NCBI GenBank assembly: GCA_025451235.1
Contig: JANWKT010000020.1
Coordinates: 112,032 to 176,031, forward strand
DNA: 64,000 bases
Source: Flavobacteriales bacterium
GTDB lineage: Bacteria > Bacteroidota > Bacteroidia > CAIKAF01
Direction of reading: 5' to 3'
Under the pieces are notes generated by a model. It was given only the letters and a program-made list of their open reading frames with translations, was not told the origin of the DNA and did not search any database. Shown here piece after piece: positions 33,298-42,447 of this stretch (positions within the stretch are counted from its first letter, which is position 1; each line of letters starts with the position of its first letter). A program made the translations under genes and the position numbers.

Positions 33298-34080
33298 ACC
33301 TCCGTCTTTTTTAATGATCTGATTGGAAAGAAATTCATAGACTTCTTTTGCCTCAGGATTTCCTTCCAATAACTCCAAATGTTTCCGGATCACCGCCTCA
33401 TCTTTTCTTTTTGCTGGACCTGTTTGTAAAAGGGCAGGATTGGATTGATCTAAACGTTCGGCAGTTTGTTTGATCAATGGGATCAACAAACTAAATGGTA
33501 AATGTTGTTTGGTTACCAGATCGTATGCAAGTGCAAACAGATAATTGCTGAAATTATTCACAAATATAGCCGCCATATGCAATTGAATTCTTTGGGTGGA
33601 ATTCAGATACTCTACCTGGTCGGATAATTTTTTGCTTACGTTAAAAAGCATCTCAGTAAATTCATCGTTGTTCGCTTCTACACATATCGGCACCTTCTTC
33701 CAATCCATTGCTTCCTTCTTATTGAAAGACTGTACAGGATAAAATACCCCCATATTGTTAGCATGTAATGAGAGTACCTTCATGTCGACACTTCCGGAAG
33801 TATGCACGATGGCAGGCAAATCTTTGGGAATAAGTTTCAACGCCTCTTCTATGGCATCGTCTTTAATGGAGATGATCACCAGATCAACATCTCTTTCCAG
33901 GTTTTCCAACCGGGTGCAAACATCCGCCTTTACAAGCTCTGCTAAGCCGGCTGCATGATGATGATCCTTGCTCCATATTTCTTTGATGGTTATTCCTGCC
34001 GCATGGAATCCTACCGCCACGTGATGGGCCAGGTTACCCGAACCTACCAAGCTTACAGTGCTGATGGGCCTTTTATCCAT
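33292..34080 (-). CDS. Rossmann-fold and DUF2520 domain oxidoreductase-like protein
   Basis: A 262-residue cytoplasmic protein. The N-terminal NAD(P)-binding half starts VSLVGSGNLAHHVAVG and contains VIISIKDDAIEEAL, similar to pyrroline-5-carboxylate reductases; the C-terminal half (about 130-255) is DUF2520, with IQLHMAAIFVNNFSNYLFAL. Its reaction is not known. It overlaps the ccmF gene by 8 bases, so it is translated from the same message, though it is not a cytochrome maturation protein by sequence. Confidence 0.9.
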   Translation of the reverse strand: MDKRPISTVSLVGSGNLAHHVAVGFHAAGITIKEIWSKDHHHAAGLAELVKADVCTRLENLERDVDLVIISIKDDAIEEALKLIPKDLPAIVHTSGSVDMKVLSLHANNMGVFYPVQSFNKKEAMDWKKVPICVEANNDEFTEMLFNVSKKLSDQVEYLNSTQRIQLHMAAIFVNNFSNYLFALAYDLVTKQHLPFSLLIPLIKQTAERLDQSNPALLQTGPAKRKDEAVIRKHLELLEGNPEAKEVYEFLSNQIIKKDGGK

Positions 34081-36670
34081 TTTTACGTTGGGTAATCCGT
34101 TTTATTACTGCGAAGAATGTTCCGAATACCATCAAAAAACAACCGCACCATAAAATATTGATCCCTGGGAAAATAATGGCCTGCATAATGATGAAGTTAT
34201 TGGCCCTTGGATCTTGAACTTCCCTCATGGCCACTTCGATTTGCTTATCATCTAAAATTTTCTCTACTTCTAATTCAATCCCAAATTTCTCCGAGACGTC
34301 CTTCCTGGTCATGAGCATATTGTCCCTTACTTCATAGATCGGCCGAATGGTGTCCTGCTCTCCTTTAAAATTTTTTATAACAAAACTTCCCCTTAGCGTA
34401 ACCGATAAAGGCTGGGTTTCCTCCACATGATCGATATTTGATAAAGCCTCAAACCCTTCGAAAATAACATAGTAGCTGGTACCAAAAATAGTATCGCCTT
34501 TCTCCAAGGTAAAATGCTGTACTTCCTTTTGCTCTTGCATCAGCGCAAGTTGAGGATTTGATTTACGTTTTAGTTTATCCAGATCCACATAAGTAACATG
34601 GGTAAAAACGTCTTTGTGCAAGTAATGCTTGGTGGCGGGTTCTACAGAATTACCTTTTTTATCATCCATGATGAGATGAGGAGTTAAGGTAAATATCTTT
34701 TTTAGCGATCCATCCTTTTGTTTTTTCAGATAATCGATCGTATAGTAGGCTTTATATCCAATAATGGTGTCATTTACAAAACTAAGGTAATAGGGTCCCA
34801 TCTGAACAGTATCATGCTGATGCAACATGATGTTTTCCTTGTTCTTGAATTCTGCATTCAGCATTTCGAGGTTAATGCCGTTTTTGTTTTCAGAAATGAT
34901 CTTCTTATGTCCGGCAGAAATGACTGCTCCCAGGATAACCACTCCGAACCCTATATGTGCAATGGCGGGTCCTGCAAATTTCCATTTTCGTTTGAGGTAT
35001 TGAATAATATAGTCTATGTTTCCTAAAATTCCCATTAAACTGGCAAACACCACCATGATGTACAATCCATTTCGGAATTCTTCAAATGCAATTAACCCAG
35101 CAATGATCAGTACCAACGCCACGATCACGGATCTTATCATCCTTTTCCAAAACTCGCCTGGCTTATCCTGTTTGTACCTGAGATGCTGAACATAGGCCAT
35201 GAGACTCAAGATCAAAATGGCAAAGACTGCCTGAAAACCATTATAGTCAGCAATATCAAATGGAGCAAACTTTGATTTGAAGATCTTATTGAAAACAGGA
35301 ATAGAGGTGAGGAAAGTAATATGTATGCTTGAAGCGGCTAAAATCAATGCTGCCACAAACAACCAGAACTCGCGGCTATAAATATGGTCATCCTTTTTAG
35401 TTGTTGGAAAATATTCCTGGTTCTTTGCATTCACAAATGCTGGGAATAACATAAAAAAGAAAGCTGAGAAAAAAGCCAGGTATAAAATGATATTGGCAAA
35501 GATCCCAAGAGCAATTACACCTAACAGGATCGCAAAATAATTGATCCTCGAACTTATCTTACGCATGGCAAGGGCAGGAGGAAGTGCTAGAAAGAAAAAC
35601 AAATATACCAATAACAGATCTGTCATTCCGAGATCAGTAAATGAATGAACGGATGCATCACCCAAAACTCCGCTTTTGGTAAGAAAGGTGGAATAAAGTA
35701 CGAGGATAAAGCTTACGGGTGCCATTACGATGGCTGCCTTTAAATTAATTCCCTTGTTATGAGGTACCATCATTAAATGTCCGGCGGCTACCAAAGTTAA
35801 CCATGCCACTAAAGATGAATTCTCCACGGCATCCCATATCCAGAATCCGCCAAAGTTCAATGATTCATATGCCCATGCACCACCCATTAAGATCCCTCCT
35901 CCTAAGATCGCCACTCCTGTAAAAACCCATGGTAATGCCGGCTTACTCCATTCATTTAATTTCCCTGACCATAAGCCAGCCACTGCATATAAATAAGGTA
36001 CAATGGTGAGGGCAAAGCCTAAAAATAAAGTGGGAGGATGTATGGTCATCCAATAGTTTTGCAAGGAAGGAGCCAATCCACTTCCATCTAATGATTTCAA
36101 ATAATCGGGCATTTGGGTAAATGGAGCTCCGGCAAAATGCACCCTGGTGAGTGTAAATGGATTACTTCCTAGTTTATATTCATCCAGGAAAGGAAGGTCA
36201 ATAACAATTCCCAATATCATTGACATGAGAAATGCCAGTACCAATGCAAAAATGCTCATCACTCTGCCCTCCCATTGTTTAGAAGTGAACATGAGAATGA
36301 CTGCTATAATCTCCAGCCAAAAAGCCCAAAGTAAGGTACTACCCTCCTGCCCTTCCCAAAAGGCTGCAAAAACATATTTAGAAGGTAATGACTTGCTGGA
36401 ATGCTGAAATACATAATGGTATTCAAAACGATGATTGACCAAAATGTAGAAAATAATTCCTACGATGGCAAATACGGAAAGGGCATGAAGAAAAAAGGAT
36501 ATGCGGCCCATCCATTTCCAGTCGATAATACCTTTAAAAGAATTTTTTATAGAAAAAACATAGCAGAGAAAAGCAAGGATCGCAGTAGCGAAGGCCATAG
36601 AAATGGCCAAATTTCCTAATGTTCCCCAGATTAATTGTTCACCAATAAATGCTATTTGTTGTTTTTCCAT
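34073..36670 (-). CDS. ccmF: Cytochrome c maturation heme lyase CcmF
   Basis: An 865-residue integral membrane protein with about 14 membrane segments. The heme-handling WWD domain is visible as GGFWIWDAVENSSLVAWLT at about 275, with the earlier GSTLLWAFWLE and TIHPPTLFLGF typical of CcmF, followed by a periplasmic C-terminal region (about 620-840) and a final membrane segment. CcmF joins heme from CcmE to the CxxCH motif of apocytochromes. The adjacent ccmE (one base overlap) forms the same operon. Cytochrome genes at 40369 would be plausible clients. Confidence 0.93.
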   Translation of the reverse strand: MEKQQIAFIGEQLIWGTLGNLAISMAFATAILAFLCYVFSIKNSFKGIIDWKWMGRISFFLHALSVFAIVGIIFYILVNHRFEYHYVFQHSSKSLPSKYVFAAFWEGQEGSTLLWAFWLEIIAVILMFTSKQWEGRVMSIFALVLAFLMSMILGIVIDLPFLDEYKLGSNPFTLTRVHFAGAPFTQMPDYLKSLDGSGLAPSLQNYWMTIHPPTLFLGFALTIVPYLYAVAGLWSGKLNEWSKPALPWVFTGVAILGGGILMGGAWAYESLNFGGFWIWDAVENSSLVAWLTLVAAGHLMMVPHNKGINLKAAIVMAPVSFILVLYSTFLTKSGVLGDASVHSFTDLGMTDLLLVYLFFFLALPPALAMRKISSRINYFAILLGVIALGIFANIILYLAFFSAFFFMLFPAFVNAKNQEYFPTTKKDDHIYSREFWLFVAALILAASSIHITFLTSIPVFNKIFKSKFAPFDIADYNGFQAVFAILILSLMAYVQHLRYKQDKPGEFWKRMIRSVIVALVLIIAGLIAFEEFRNGLYIMVVFASLMGILGNIDYIIQYLKRKWKFAGPAIAHIGFGVVILGAVISAGHKKIISENKNGINLEMLNAEFKNKENIMLHQHDTVQMGPYYLSFVNDTIIGYKAYYTIDYLKKQKDGSLKKIFTLTPHLIMDDKKGNSVEPATKHYLHKDVFTHVTYVDLDKLKRKSNPQLALMQEQKEVQHFTLEKGDTIFGTSYYVIFEGFEALSNIDHVEETQPLSVTLRGSFVIKNFKGEQDTIRPIYEVRDNMLMTRKDVSEKFGIELEVEKILDDKQIEVAMREVQDPRANNFIIMQAIIFPGINILWCGCFLMVFGTFFAVIKRITQRKNG

Positions 36671-37059
36671 TACTTCACTTCCGTTGTCTGGGCATCACTG
36701 TATTTGGAAGGACATTTGGTTAAGATATCTTTTGCATGAAATCCGTCGTCCTGCATTTTGCCGATAACAACGATTTGTTCCGATTTATCAAAGTCTTGTG
36801 GTTTGGCTTCGTGTAAAAACACTTTGCGCTCCACTCCTTCTTTATCGGTTAAATAAAAAGTAAAAAGGTTGGCATCGCTTTGAGGATCATAGAGGATCTC
36901 TTTTTCGCGATTTAATTTACCCACCACATGATAAACTTTGTCTCTGTTTTTATCTGATTCCGTAAAAGAAGCATAAGTTTCGGAACTGTTTAATGATATG
37001 AAAACGATTCCTATACTTACCGCGATAACGATGAGGATAATGATATGTGATTTTTTCAT
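36670..37059 (-). CDS. ccmE: Heme chaperone CcmE, CxxxY variant
   Basis: A 129-residue protein from the ATG at 37059 (an upstream in-frame ATG at 37077 would add six residues). One membrane anchor (about 4-23) is followed by a periplasmic OB-fold (about 40-112) with VYHVVGKLNREKEIL and FTFYLTDKEG. Where the family has a heme-binding His in HxxxY, this protein has KCPSKY: C116 and Y120. The His-to-Cys form is known from archaea and Desulfovibrio as CxxxY CcmE (system I*). It is followed by ccmF with a one-base overlap. Confidence 0.92.
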   Translation of the reverse strand: MKKSHIIILIVIAVSIGIVFISLNSSETYASFTESDKNRDKVYHVVGKLNREKEILYDPQSDANLFTFYLTDKEGVERKVFLHEAKPQDFDKSEQIVVIGKMQDDGFHAKDILTKCPSKYSDAQTTEVK

Positions 37060-37088
37060 GGGATATTTATTGACCACTCAACTCAGTA

Positions 37089-37326: not shown

Positions 37327-40260
37327 TTATTTTACAACAACTCTTGTATTGTAATCTTTGTTATTGATTGTCAGTTTAACGTTGTATACTCCTGAAGCAT
37401 AGGTAGAAGTATTAATGGTTTTGATAACCGTACCATTTACTGTACCTAGGTTAAGGTCGTATACTTTTTTGCCTAACATATCATAAACAGCCATGGTTGC
37501 TTCACCTGATTCAGGTGCAGTAAATTCAACTGTTACAAAATCTGTAGCTGGATTTGGATATACCATGATATTCATATCTGATTCAGAACCGATCCCTGCT
37601 GTAATAAATACAGTTGCTGGGGTTCTTGCAGAAACACATATATCAGTTGGATCGATATCTACTGACCAGTTGTAGAAATAATAGTAAGCATTTACATCGC
37701 CACCACCATTATTACCAGTGGTAATATCAATTACAGCAGGTAAAGAGTATGGGAAAGTAGGAGATCCATTGTCTCTCACCAATCTTGGACTGATATAACC
37801 AAATGAAGTTGTGTTTTGTGCTGAATTGGTTCCTAATTGGTAATCGGTACCAGGAGTTAATGCAAAGTTTACCGGAACGGTGGTTGTACCTGTAGCCAGC
37901 GTTACAGGATAACTTGATATCACTGCACCCAGGTTATCTCTTAATTCGATGATACGATCACCAGGAGTATCTGTGCTTACTTCAACAGAAAGCAAGGTAC
38001 AGTTAGCCGTTACATCAAATTTCAGGTAACCATTCAGGGTATTACCAGAGTAAGTAGAACCCGCTATATTGGTTGAACCAACGTTACCTGTTCCACCGCC
38101 ATAAATATGGGTTTCCTCTGCATAATAGGTAGTGTTTACCGATACCGAAGGAGTGATGAACGTAGTTCCGGTATATAACAATGTTCCACCCACGGCAGCA
38201 TCATACCAGTCAATATTGGTCGTTACTCCAGTAGCGGTAAGTGTACCAGTACCTGGAGCAGGAATAATATCATCGGTTGTTACAGGGGCTGCATTGTTCA
38301 ATAATGTAACCACAATTGAATTGGAGGGCCATGCCTGACATAATCCCTGGAAGCTAGTAGAATATGTTCCAGCAGCCGATACATTGATAGATTGAGTAGT
38401 TTCGGTTGTAGTCCATGTATTGTTAGAAGCTTGAGAAGAGTTAAGTGTTACGCTTCCACCAGGACAGAATGTAGTAGGTCCAGCAGCAGATATGGTAACT
38501 GATTCTACAGGATCAACCGTAACCGAAACCGCAGGAGAGGATGCTGAGCAGCCTGGACCTGTTGAAACAGTAACCGAATATGCGCCTGTTGAATTCACAT
38601 AAGTAGTTTGTGTGGTTGCACCGTTTGACCATAAATAAGTATAGGTTGGATCAAAAGGAGCAGTGAGCAATAATGAATCACCGCCACAGAAAGTGGTTGG
38701 ACCACCAGGAGTAGCAGTAATACCAGAAAGTGTACAGGCAGCTTCATTGATCGTAATAAACTGATCAGCCGGCTCATTGATCAATACATCCACTAAACCA
38801 GATGGCCATTCAACTACGACTGAGTCAACAACAGTTGCTGAACCTAAACCAAAATGTAAATGGAATGAGTTCAAAGTACCATAACTTTCGCTGGCTCTTA
38901 CCTCACGGGTTTGAACTCCCCATGCACCATAAATATATGCCCTGGCACCTAAGGCACCATCATTACTTACGGTTCCTCTTAGATCAAGCGTAAGGAAATG
39001 GTTAGAGTTGCTGGTATTATTTCTCCAATATATATCATCTGAACTACCCGGATTGTTATAAATAGATCCATAGCTTGAATACACATCGATCTTACCATCC
39101 TGGTTCAAATCGCCACAAGCGAAAGAGATCCAAGTACCAGTCCACCCCGGGGCAGCTACCTGGGTAAAAGTTCCATTACCATTATTTCTATGTAAGCGCT
39201 GAGTAGTTGTTCCGGAGATCAACACATCAATAAATCCATCATTATCAAAATCCTCCATAAAAGATTGTTGTGGAGTACTTCCGAAAGAAAGGGTCGGCTG
39301 AGCCGCATTTGCAGTAAAGTTTCCACTTCCATCATTCAGGAAAAGTCGGTTGGTATTACCTGCTTCGTGGCCTGTTAAGAAAAGGTCGAAGTCTCCATCA
39401 TTGTCAATATCTCCGAAACTACTGGTCCAGTCCTGGGTATAACCACCCAGTCCATGAGCCGCAGCCGCTGAGGTATACACATTGCTCCCGTTGTTATCAA
39501 ATAGCACATCCACTCTCCTTAAGTCGGATGCACCTGTACCTTGACGACAGTGAGCAATATAAAGATCCACATCTCCGTCGTTGTTATAGTCGGTCCAAAC
39601 GCTTCCGTAATTTCCTGATTCGTCATAGGGTGCAACAGTTCCTGCAGTTACATCAAAGTCAATGGCTGTATTGTTCGCTTCGGCAGGAAAATTTCCGGCT
39701 CCGTCGTTCACCCATATCATACATTCGTTTACGTCATTACATACAAAAATATCTTCCCAACCATCATTATTTACATCCATAAAGTTACAGGCCTGAGAGG
39801 CTATACCACCGCCGCCTGGTAGATTGGTAATCCCAAGATTTCCTGTACCAGCTGCATTTAATTTAATGATCCTGGCACCTCCGGTACCCCATCCGGCGTA
39901 TAAAAAGTCTTTCATTCCATTATGGTCCACATCGGCCATAGAAGCTCCCCAAATATTATCACCGCTTGAACCTACATCAAATACATTATTGGCATGTACA
40001 AATGTACCGCCTACTTGCTGATATTCAATGTCTAAATACCTATTCTCGTCGAGTTTAGCAATATCATCCAGGCCATTGTTGTCAATATCAACAATGAGCA
40101 CAGTATTTCCGCTATGCACCCCACCATTAGAGCCCGCTACACCTGCATCGGTATGTAATACGGAATTACCATTGGTAAAGGTCATCTGAGCGAAGGACAC
40201 ACCAAGAGTGCCAACCGAAAATGCAATAAGGGTTGTGATCTTAAGAGTAAAGTTTTTCAT
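37327..40260 (-). CDS. Large secreted FG-GAP/ASPIC-UnbV protein with T9SS sorting domain
   Basis: A 977-residue protein from the ATG at 40260, which opens with a signal peptide (to VSFAQ). FG-GAP/VCBS repeats (about 40-400) follow, with many calcium-binding DxDxDGxxD loops (for example DNNGLDDIAKLD, DNDGDFDLFLTG). An ASPIC/UnbV domain (about 430-525) has HFGLGSATVVDSVVVEWPSG. Two Ig-like/PKD-type segments with GPTTFCGGDSLLL come next, then a carbohydrate-like or lectin-like region and a type A T9SS tail (MVYPNPATDFVTVEF). A surface adhesin or structural role is likely. Confidence 0.9.
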   Translation of the reverse strand: MKNFTLKITTLIAFSVGTLGVSFAQMTFTNGNSVLHTDAGVAGSNGGVHSGNTVLIVDIDNNGLDDIAKLDENRYLDIEYQQVGGTFVHANNVFDVGSSGDNIWGASMADVDHNGMKDFLYAGWGTGGARIIKLNAAGTGNLGITNLPGGGGIASQACNFMDVNNDGWEDIFVCNDVNECMIWVNDGAGNFPAEANNTAIDFDVTAGTVAPYDESGNYGSVWTDYNNDGDVDLYIAHCRQGTGASDLRRVDVLFDNNGSNVYTSAAAAHGLGGYTQDWTSSFGDIDNDGDFDLFLTGHEAGNTNRLFLNDGSGNFTANAAQPTLSFGSTPQQSFMEDFDNDGFIDVLISGTTTQRLHRNNGNGTFTQVAAPGWTGTWISFACGDLNQDGKIDVYSSYGSIYNNPGSSDDIYWRNNTSNSNHFLTLDLRGTVSNDGALGARAYIYGAWGVQTREVRASESYGTLNSFHLHFGLGSATVVDSVVVEWPSGLVDVLINEPADQFITINEAACTLSGITATPGGPTTFCGGDSLLLTAPFDPTYTYLWSNGATTQTTYVNSTGAYSVTVSTGPGCSASSPAVSVTVDPVESVTISAAGPTTFCPGGSVTLNSSQASNNTWTTTETTQSINVSAAGTYSTSFQGLCQAWPSNSIVVTLLNNAAPVTTDDIIPAPGTGTLTATGVTTNIDWYDAAVGGTLLYTGTTFITPSVSVNTTYYAEETHIYGGGTGNVGSTNIAGSTYSGNTLNGYLKFDVTANCTLLSVEVSTDTPGDRIIELRDNLGAVISSYPVTLATGTTTVPVNFALTPGTDYQLGTNSAQNTTSFGYISPRLVRDNGSPTFPYSLPAVIDITTGNNGGGDVNAYYYFYNWSVDIDPTDICVSARTPATVFITAGIGSESDMNIMVYPNPATDFVTVEFTAPESGEATMAVYDMLGKKVYDLNLGTVNGTVIKTINTSTYASGVYNVKLTINNKDYNTRVVVK

Positions 40261-40368: not shown

Positions 40369-42363
40369 TTAATTCCGGATCAATTTTCTCACAAAATGCT
40401 TGCCTTTATAGACCATAGCAAGAATGTAGTTCCCCTTGGTTTGCGGCAATTGGATAGTGTATTGGGTATTAAAATCCTTGTAACTCCATTCTTTCACATA
40501 CCTTCCATTGGCCTCGTACAGGGTGAATTTAAGGAATTCAGAGCCTTCGGGCAGGTAAATATTTACGTATCCATCATTTGACGGGGTGGGGCCCACTTTA
40601 ATCAAGTCATCATAGTCTGGTATATGTGCACCCAGCGCTATATTTATGATGGAATCCTCGCCAACCAGGAATGGTTCCCTATCTGAGGCATTGTACATAT
40701 TCCTGAAGGTATCTATTTCAGCGGTACTTTCGCCGAACATTTCGGCCAAAAACTCAGGTGGAAGGGCCTGGTAGTAGATATAGGAATAAATACTAAAAGG
40801 TTGTGAATAGCCTGCAATAGGTACATGGAAATGCACATAATCCCGGCCTGTACCTTCCTGTCCATTAACAATAGATATATTAAAATCCGGATCAGTGGTA
40901 GCATCCCCCACAATTTTTACGGTATCGTACACATTGGCTGTGGTTAAAAACCCTTCAGGTGGGATCCGGTTATCCTTTAACATAGTATCTGCCCTTTCAA
41001 GCAAAGAGGTAAAGTTACCATTTACGTCACCCGGAACCATCTCATATATCTGGGCCTGGGTTTCGCTTGAAATCACATTATAATGAGGTTCGAAATTGGG
41101 ATCTAAATTGATCACCGCATAATTGGGGTCGAAAATCCCAGACTGGAACAAAGTATCATTGGCCGAGCCTATGACGACAAATTTCAATACTGCCCGTCGG
41201 CTGGGATAACCTGAAGGAAATTTATGACCTGCTTTATTGGTTAATCGCACGGTGAAATAGGCAGTATCAGGATTTACACTGTCCACAGCAAGGTTCACAT
41301 CCATCGTACGGTTGCGAAGCATGTTTTCTGTGGCGGCAATGGAAGAATCATAATTTGCATCTGTTGCCTCTATTCCCAGCGCTGTTTTATGGTCTTTCAT
41401 GAGCTTAAGCATGAATACATTGCTTCCCTGAAAAACATGTTCGTTGAAAGGATATTTATAAGGAAGACCGAAATAGCCTGTGGCGATCCTCACAGAGTCA
41501 TCCGTTTCGGGCATATGGCAACTCTGACAAACCACATCATCCTCTGAATACAGAGAATTGACCCATTCGTGATAGGTGGCTTGTTCTATGAATTGGTTGC
41601 CAGTAGGTATTCCCACCAGATCCACCGAATTGATGATCAATGTATGGCAGGAAGAGCACATTCTACCTTCGCTTACATGAGCCGACCAAGTAGGGGTCAT
41701 GGCTACATATAATTGCATAGGACCGGTTTGTACTCCGGTAAAGGGCCCATACAGCACATGGGTAGTATCGTAAGGAATATTACCCGAAAACATGGTGCCC
41801 AATCCCTGGTCACCGATCATATGACATGCAACACAAGAAACGCCATCCAATCCTAAACTATCACTTGCATTGAGCATATCTGCAATGGTATAGAATGGGT
41901 TTCCTTTGTACATGGAGGAATAATTACCCATGGGTGCATGACATTTGGTGCAAGTATTTTGAATTTCGTTTGAAATACCAGGATTTATCAGGATCTCATG
42001 ACTCACTTTAGCTCTCCACATCGGATCCCGTGCAGAATTGGCCATCATGGTTGATCTCCAATCATCATATATATTGATGTCCACACTATCATAGGTAACC
42101 AATGCATACTGGGCTGGATCGAATCCGTGACAGCCTGCACAATTATCAGAATGTAGAAATGTTTCTCCAGGAAGAATGGGATCCATCAATAATTTTTTGA
42201 GCATTTTATTTTCTTTCGGTGTATGAAAGTTGGGGATATCAGAAACCGCAGTCATCAACTTCCTGTTATTGATGTATTCAACAATGGCTGATCTGATAAG
42301 TTGAAAGGAAATAATAGTAGCTACGATCAATAATGCAGCATACTGTTTTTTTATTTTTTTCAT
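40369..42363 (-). CDS. Five-heme c-type cytochrome with T9SS-like C-terminal domain
   Basis: A 664-residue protein from the ATG at 42363. A signal peptide or anchor (MKKIKKQYAALLIVATIISF) precedes a region with five CxxCH motifs: CAGCH (75-79), CTKCH (138-142), CVACH (177-181), CSSCH (236-240) and CQSCH (279-283). The C-terminal half is beta-rich, and the last 75 residues resemble a degenerate type A T9SS sorting domain (PTPSNDGYVNIYLPEG, then TIQLPQTKGNYILAMVYKGK and FVRKLIRN). It could be a surface-exposed electron carrier or a periplasmic oxidoreductase. The ccmE-ccmF pair lies about 3.3 kb away. Confidence 0.9.
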   Translation of the reverse strand: MKKIKKQYAALLIVATIISFQLIRSAIVEYINNRKLMTAVSDIPNFHTPKENKMLKKLLMDPILPGETFLHSDNCAGCHGFDPAQYALVTYDSVDINIYDDWRSTMMANSARDPMWRAKVSHEILINPGISNEIQNTCTKCHAPMGNYSSMYKGNPFYTIADMLNASDSLGLDGVSCVACHMIGDQGLGTMFSGNIPYDTTHVLYGPFTGVQTGPMQLYVAMTPTWSAHVSEGRMCSSCHTLIINSVDLVGIPTGNQFIEQATYHEWVNSLYSEDDVVCQSCHMPETDDSVRIATGYFGLPYKYPFNEHVFQGSNVFMLKLMKDHKTALGIEATDANYDSSIAATENMLRNRTMDVNLAVDSVNPDTAYFTVRLTNKAGHKFPSGYPSRRAVLKFVVIGSANDTLFQSGIFDPNYAVINLDPNFEPHYNVISSETQAQIYEMVPGDVNGNFTSLLERADTMLKDNRIPPEGFLTTANVYDTVKIVGDATTDPDFNISIVNGQEGTGRDYVHFHVPIAGYSQPFSIYSYIYYQALPPEFLAEMFGESTAEIDTFRNMYNASDREPFLVGEDSIINIALGAHIPDYDDLIKVGPTPSNDGYVNIYLPEGSEFLKFTLYEANGRYVKEWSYKDFNTQYTIQLPQTKGNYILAMVYKGKHFVRKLIRN

Positions 42364-42447
42364 ACAGGGAAACGAGAAAGGACAGCTAAAATTACGGATT
42401 GTTTTAGTAAAAAACAAATTTCATACTAAATGGAGTAGTGCTGGAAT

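Follow-up and report, generated by a model that had tools for sequence, protein, structure and literature searches.

The window, by which we mean the whole stretch of 64,000 nucleotides that was analysed, encodes a predicted multiheme c-type cytochrome on its minus strand. The next gene downstream encodes a large FG-GAP/UnbV protein, and the cytochrome c maturation genes ccmE and ccmF are the second and third genes downstream (about 34073-37077 of the window, also minus strand). The original prediction had placed the cytochrome gene at 40369-42363, and these limits were borne out on the minus strand; a plus-strand reading of the same interval was ruled out by stops throughout. A TTG start at 42417 was dropped in favour of the ATG given in Table 1, as the nearest relative in the genomes searched, a 77% identical protein from a congener, begins at the same methionine. 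The congener copy (L010, G001:C23:4476-6467) has a single in-frame TAG at codon 314 in a gene that is elsewhere intact, and is either a pseudogene or an assembly error. A scan for promoters and terminators found sites no more commonly than in shuffled sequences.

Table 1. Features of the cytochrome locus (window positions; residue numbers are those of the cytochrome)
Feature	Position	Strand	Remarks
Pentaheme c-type cytochrome with C-terminal T9SS sorting domain (predicted)	40369..42363	-	664 aa; ATG at 42363; stop codon included
N-terminal hydrophobic segment, residues 1-41	42241..42363	-	Signal sequence or signal anchor
Five CxxCH heme-attachment motifs, residues 75-283	41515..42141	-	Invariant in the aligned family
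Beta-rich domain, residues 354-575	40639..41304	-	N-x-x-G-H-K-F-P-S-G-Y-P-x-R-R at 376-390; invariant H380 and H427
T9SS type A sorting domain (predicted), residues 589-664	40372..40599	-	TIGR04183; fold match; 86/87 family members
Partner: FG-GAP repeats, UnbV/ASPIC, Ig-like domains, T9SS type A sorting domain	37327..40260	-	977 aa; ATG at 40260
CcmE heme chaperone (cytochrome c maturation)	36670..37059	-	PF03100, 43.4 bits
CcmF cytochrome c assembly protein	34073..36670	-	PF01578, 83.4 bits; PF16327, 45.5 bits

The five CxxCH motifs have their first residues at 75, 138, 177, 236, and 279 and thus span 75-283, the range given in the original prediction; no other ORF of the window encodes a CxxCH protein. 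Exactly five motifs were present in all 93 homologous loci, a count that includes the window locus and a few duplicates. The Pfam Cytochrome_C7 model matched the core at 33.4 bits (cut-off 24.8). An AlphaFold2 model of the cytochrome had a mean pLDDT of 89.7, and the best fold match of its core was the pentaheme cytochrome c552 of Thermochromatium tepidum (5ze8, E 3e-16); sequence-profile matches of the family were to MccSep (9wt8) and again to 5ze8. Five CxxCH motifs within a c552 fold place the protein in the pentaheme (PHC/c552) family, and by sequence and predicted fold it is a member of the broad c552/ExtKL-like pentaheme superfamily. Four histidines outside the motifs (His 229, 309, 380, and 427) and three methionines (Met 107, 216, and 318) are conserved in the Bacteroidia family and could be distal ligands, giving all five hemes six ligands. 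Matches to NrfA, NrfH, MtrC, c554, and other heme families were short or under cut-off and were rejected. Identity with ExtKL/MccSep was also rejected, as the NF040886 score was 25.9 bits where 250 is required, and the selenocysteine position of MccSep (U325) is occupied by Tyr386, a residue 99% conserved in the Bacteroidia family.

The N-terminus of the window copy is modelled as a helix spanning residues 3-41. A scan by the -3/-1 rule was weak for this copy and no clear signal-peptidase I site was found in its N-terminus, which might therefore be an uncleaved inner-membrane anchor. Other family members have Ala-x-Ala-like sites ahead of the mature part.

At its other end the cytochrome carries the tail PTPSNDGYVNIYL ... 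FVRKLIRN, which the original prediction had called T9SS-like and degenerate. The latter word is fair for the window copy, which lacks the Y/FPNP motif; many relatives have canonical YPNP or FPNP. The tail proved to be more than a look-alike. Of the type A models searched, the NCBIfam model TIGR04183 (cut-off 23) was passed by the tail alone at 32.8 bits (E 5e-8) and by the whole cytochrome at 27.8 bits, whereas Pfam PF18962 was missed, at 22.1 bits against a gathering score of 27 that is a detection threshold rather than a biological criterion. As a single near-threshold copy would leave doubt, the tails of the whole family were compared. At E<=1e-3, TIGR04183 matched 86 of the 87 family tails and PF18962 matched 68, the window copy being counted in; these tails are about 17% identical per column. 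In the aligned family mean column identity falls from 0.62-0.65 in the core to 0.37 in the tail, which still keeps a framework of conserved P, G, G, and G residues and, in most members, a basic end. The family profile matched solved T9SS C-terminal domains (CTDs), those of Endonuclease I (8glk) and gingipain R2 (5hfs and 5ag8).

Structure prediction gave the same answer. In the AlphaFold2 model the tail is a separate beta-domain of seven strands, joined to the cytochrome core by a flexible, low-confidence linker at residues 579-583, and its predicted fold matches the mirolase CTD (8qb1, TM 0.70, rmsd 2.7) and also 4g5a. The same genome encodes SprA (2316 bits) and PorV (191 bits), both over cut-off, along with no fewer than 150 further sorting domains. 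By its profile matches and its modelled fold, we take the tail to be a genuine type A sorting domain; neither it nor the set of five heme motifs is a product of chance.

Relatives of the cytochrome were encoded at 324 loci in the species collection. The 80 loci that were kept had titles from Bacteroidota: Saprospiraceae, Flavobacteriales, Chitinophagales, and unclassified Bacteroidetes. When genomes were sampled evenly over the phylum, 39 of the 396 drawn gave a match at E<=1e-10, remote pentaheme relatives being counted. Overall identity across the tailed family is 41-77%. Some genomes have several tailed cytochromes, three in G100 (loci L160-L162) and two in G023 (L115 and L116). A few remote relatives (L139 and L143-L146) are proteins of 440-460 aa with five CxxCH motifs, most of which open with a lipobox-like Cys (LLIAAC-KEDE in L139); judging from these openings, they are possibly surface lipoproteins that arrive by another route.

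No other feature of the locus says as much about function as the adjoining T9SS-tailed FG-GAP/UnbV partner, which the original reading of the cytochrome overlooked. The partner's T9SS tail is strong (51.7 and 44.8 bits), and the protein contains the sole PF07593 (UnbV) domain of the genome. A partner homologue lies within a few kb of the cytochrome in 38 of 92 loci, a sample containing some duplicates from two collections and some loci with too little flanking sequence to reveal linkage. The homologue is mostly downstream on the same strand; inverted and upstream placements were also seen. Among 59 related genomes, the partner was found at E<1e-90 in 11 of the 11 that have the cytochrome versus 1 of the 48 that do not (Fisher p 4e-11, ancestry ignored), and the co-occurrence holds even when cytochrome and partner are carried by separate contigs. 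The partner is also present in two more cytochrome-bearing genomes of the same class, and tailed forms outside the class occur without it. Judged by these patterns it is the best functional lead: two predicted T9SS cargo proteins travelling together. CcmE and CcmF were rejected as conserved neighbours, both being absent from the recurrent neighbour families of relatives.

A sister clade (L128-L138) stops straight after the core and has no tail; its members are 33-37% identical to their best-matching core. Absence of the secretion system was ruled out as the cause, since SprA was found in 29 of 29 genomes checked and PorV in 10 of 10. For the tail-less clade itself the counts were 11/11 for SprA and 7/7 of those checked for PorV, and T9SS presence alone therefore does not force a tail. 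A quick tree with weak branches requires at least two tail changes. One genome (G356; L149:6713-10294) has tandem copies, one with a T9SS tail and one without.

Tail loss goes with a different gene partner. In 11 of 11 tail-less loci the cytochrome is adjoined by a gene whose product joins a cytochrome c domain to a beta-barrel (PF13442 at 31-44 bits; PF13557 weak), and no fusion gene of this kind lies beside any tailed cytochrome locus examined. Examples are L153:9659-10843 (-), L154:6507-7892 (+), and those of L156-L159 and other tail-less loci; the cytochrome domain is monoheme. For the barrel there are matches to FapF and to the COG4313 channel 4rl8; the structural model of the fusion protein, which is of low confidence (pLDDT 54), was used for the barrel strands only. 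In architecture the fusion recalls Cyc2, which we take to be a likeness of layout, homology aside. The fusion gene next to the tail-less clade suggests that, in the wider family, electrons have a path through the outer membrane. One and the same core thus goes either with a T9SS tail or with a putative heme-carrying outer-membrane barrel, which speaks for both forms having their role at the outer membrane or outside it. We also put forward, tentatively and as a doubtful proposal, that the phylum has evolved two routes by which this cytochrome core reaches the surface, one being the T9SS complex with the FG-GAP/UnbV protein and the other the cytochrome-barrel fusion, and that the T9SS complex would be the outside half of extracellular electron transfer in many Bacteroidota.

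The reading that we favour, and consider probable, is that the cytochrome is a pentaheme c552/ExtKL-like protein exported by the type IX secretion system, as its motifs and modelled folds suggest. Surface export is likely. From sequence we infer a surface site, heme loading, and electron transfer, and the process would begin with Sec export to the periplasm, where Ccm would attach five hemes covalently, as the motifs and the CcmE and CcmF genes of the window suggest. The PorV/SprA machinery would then recognise the folded sorting domain and export the protein to the surface, a step consistent with the 86 of 87 tails and with the SprA and PorV of this genome. Once outside the outer membrane, the cytochrome would act with the T9SS-tailed FG-GAP/UnbV partner, as their conserved linkage and co-occurrence suggest. 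Its action would be electron transfer rather than catalysis, which is favoured because the conserved non-motif His and Met residues could six-ligate all five hemes.

Respiration of outside acceptors is one option for such a protein and not our conclusion. In that case it would be a terminal reductase on the surface, handing electrons from respiration to acceptors outside the cell (metal oxides or humics, for example), a reading that we consider rather unlikely. Its multiheme core is akin to c552/ExtKL, and ExtKL has been reported as a candidate for roles in the electron transport of Geobacter and in selenite reduction (PMC5877670). ExtKL-like pentaheme cytochromes have been grouped as relatives of c552 and of the archaeal nanowire protein AvECN (PMC11976967), and the barrel fusion at every tail-less locus also points this way. 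Against this, the tailed copies have no such barrel gene beside them, the window has no second CxxCH protein, and no dense CxxCH pairs were found in the genome; the latter search covered pairs 5-15 residues apart, which numbered 0, and a CxxCH listing took in the first 100 of 269 sites. No outer-membrane electron conduit was found in the cytochrome neighbourhood. The original prediction of a surface cytochrome that moves electrons to outside acceptors is thus partly supported. A multiheme cytochrome with a real type A domain is borne out, in a genome having SprA and PorV, whereas its delivery of electrons to outside acceptors is conjectural, the analysis having turned up no way for electrons to cross the outer membrane.

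A heme enzyme that works outside the cell on some small molecule (selenite, nitrite, hydroxylamine, peroxide, or the like) with the aid of the FG-GAP/UnbV protein would explain the weak MccSep/ExtKL similarity and the short NrfA matches around a CxxCHM motif. We judge it unlikely, as Tyr386 stands at the MccSep Sec position, the conserved His and Met residues are enough to ligate all hemes, and the family matches are far under the family cut-offs. The predicted helix with its poor cleavage site and the degenerate tail of the window copy would also fit a periplasmic cytochrome anchored in the inner membrane, the tail being non-functional or a structural beta-domain. This we consider improbable, because the tail is kept in nearly the whole family despite the wide range of identities, other members have Ala-x-Ala-like sites, and tail loss is accompanied by the change of partner.

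Most multiheme cytochromes known to function extracellularly are lipoproteins, porin-borne, or filaments. If exported by the T9SS, a heme-loaded cytochrome would represent a delivery route different from those of known surface cytochromes. No paper combining the T9SS with c-type or multiheme cytochromes was found in the literature searched, which comprised non-subscription papers, and those touching both sets of terms name them in passing only in the portions available. T9SS delivery of a redox protein to the cell outside would be a route without description in that literature. Because the core-plus-tail design recurs in many related species (in Saprospiraceae, Flavobacteriales, Chitinophagales, and other Bacteroidota groups), these bacteria probably do put a redox protein outside the cell. 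Predicted extracellular multiheme proteins were reported in activated-sludge Bacteroidota, chiefly Saprospiraceae, and the portion of that text available gives no secretion route (PMC11495043); the present family can be set beside them. What is new here is a pentaheme cytochrome as putative T9SS cargo together with a conserved T9SS-tailed partner.

Among known systems, c552 (5ze8) of the PHC family (PMC11976967) shares with the window protein the five CxxCH motifs, the predicted fold (TM-score 0.66 over the target), and an H-x-x-P-x-G-x-P-x-R motif in the C-terminal beta part, but is only about 17% identical, lacks a T9SS tail, and has other partners. ExtKL/MccSep (NF040886; 9wt8) share a weak but significant profile match, the G-H-x-x-P-x-G motif, and, in ExtKL, five hemes; in contrast, no Ext cluster is present in the neighbourhood read and the window cytochrome bears a T9SS tail. 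With the porin-cytochrome conduits (MtrCAB, Pcc, and the Cyc2 cytochrome-barrel fusion) it shares a possible redox role at the outer surface, and a fusion lies next door in the tail-less sister clade only. The window gene has neither a barrel nor a periplasmic decaheme beside it, and the T9SS would replace the porin sheath. The T9SS type A cargo proteins (gingipain, mirolase, and the Endonuclease I CTD) have the same sorting domain by sequence and predicted fold, and the secretion machinery is present in the genome, but here the cargo would be a multiheme cytochrome.
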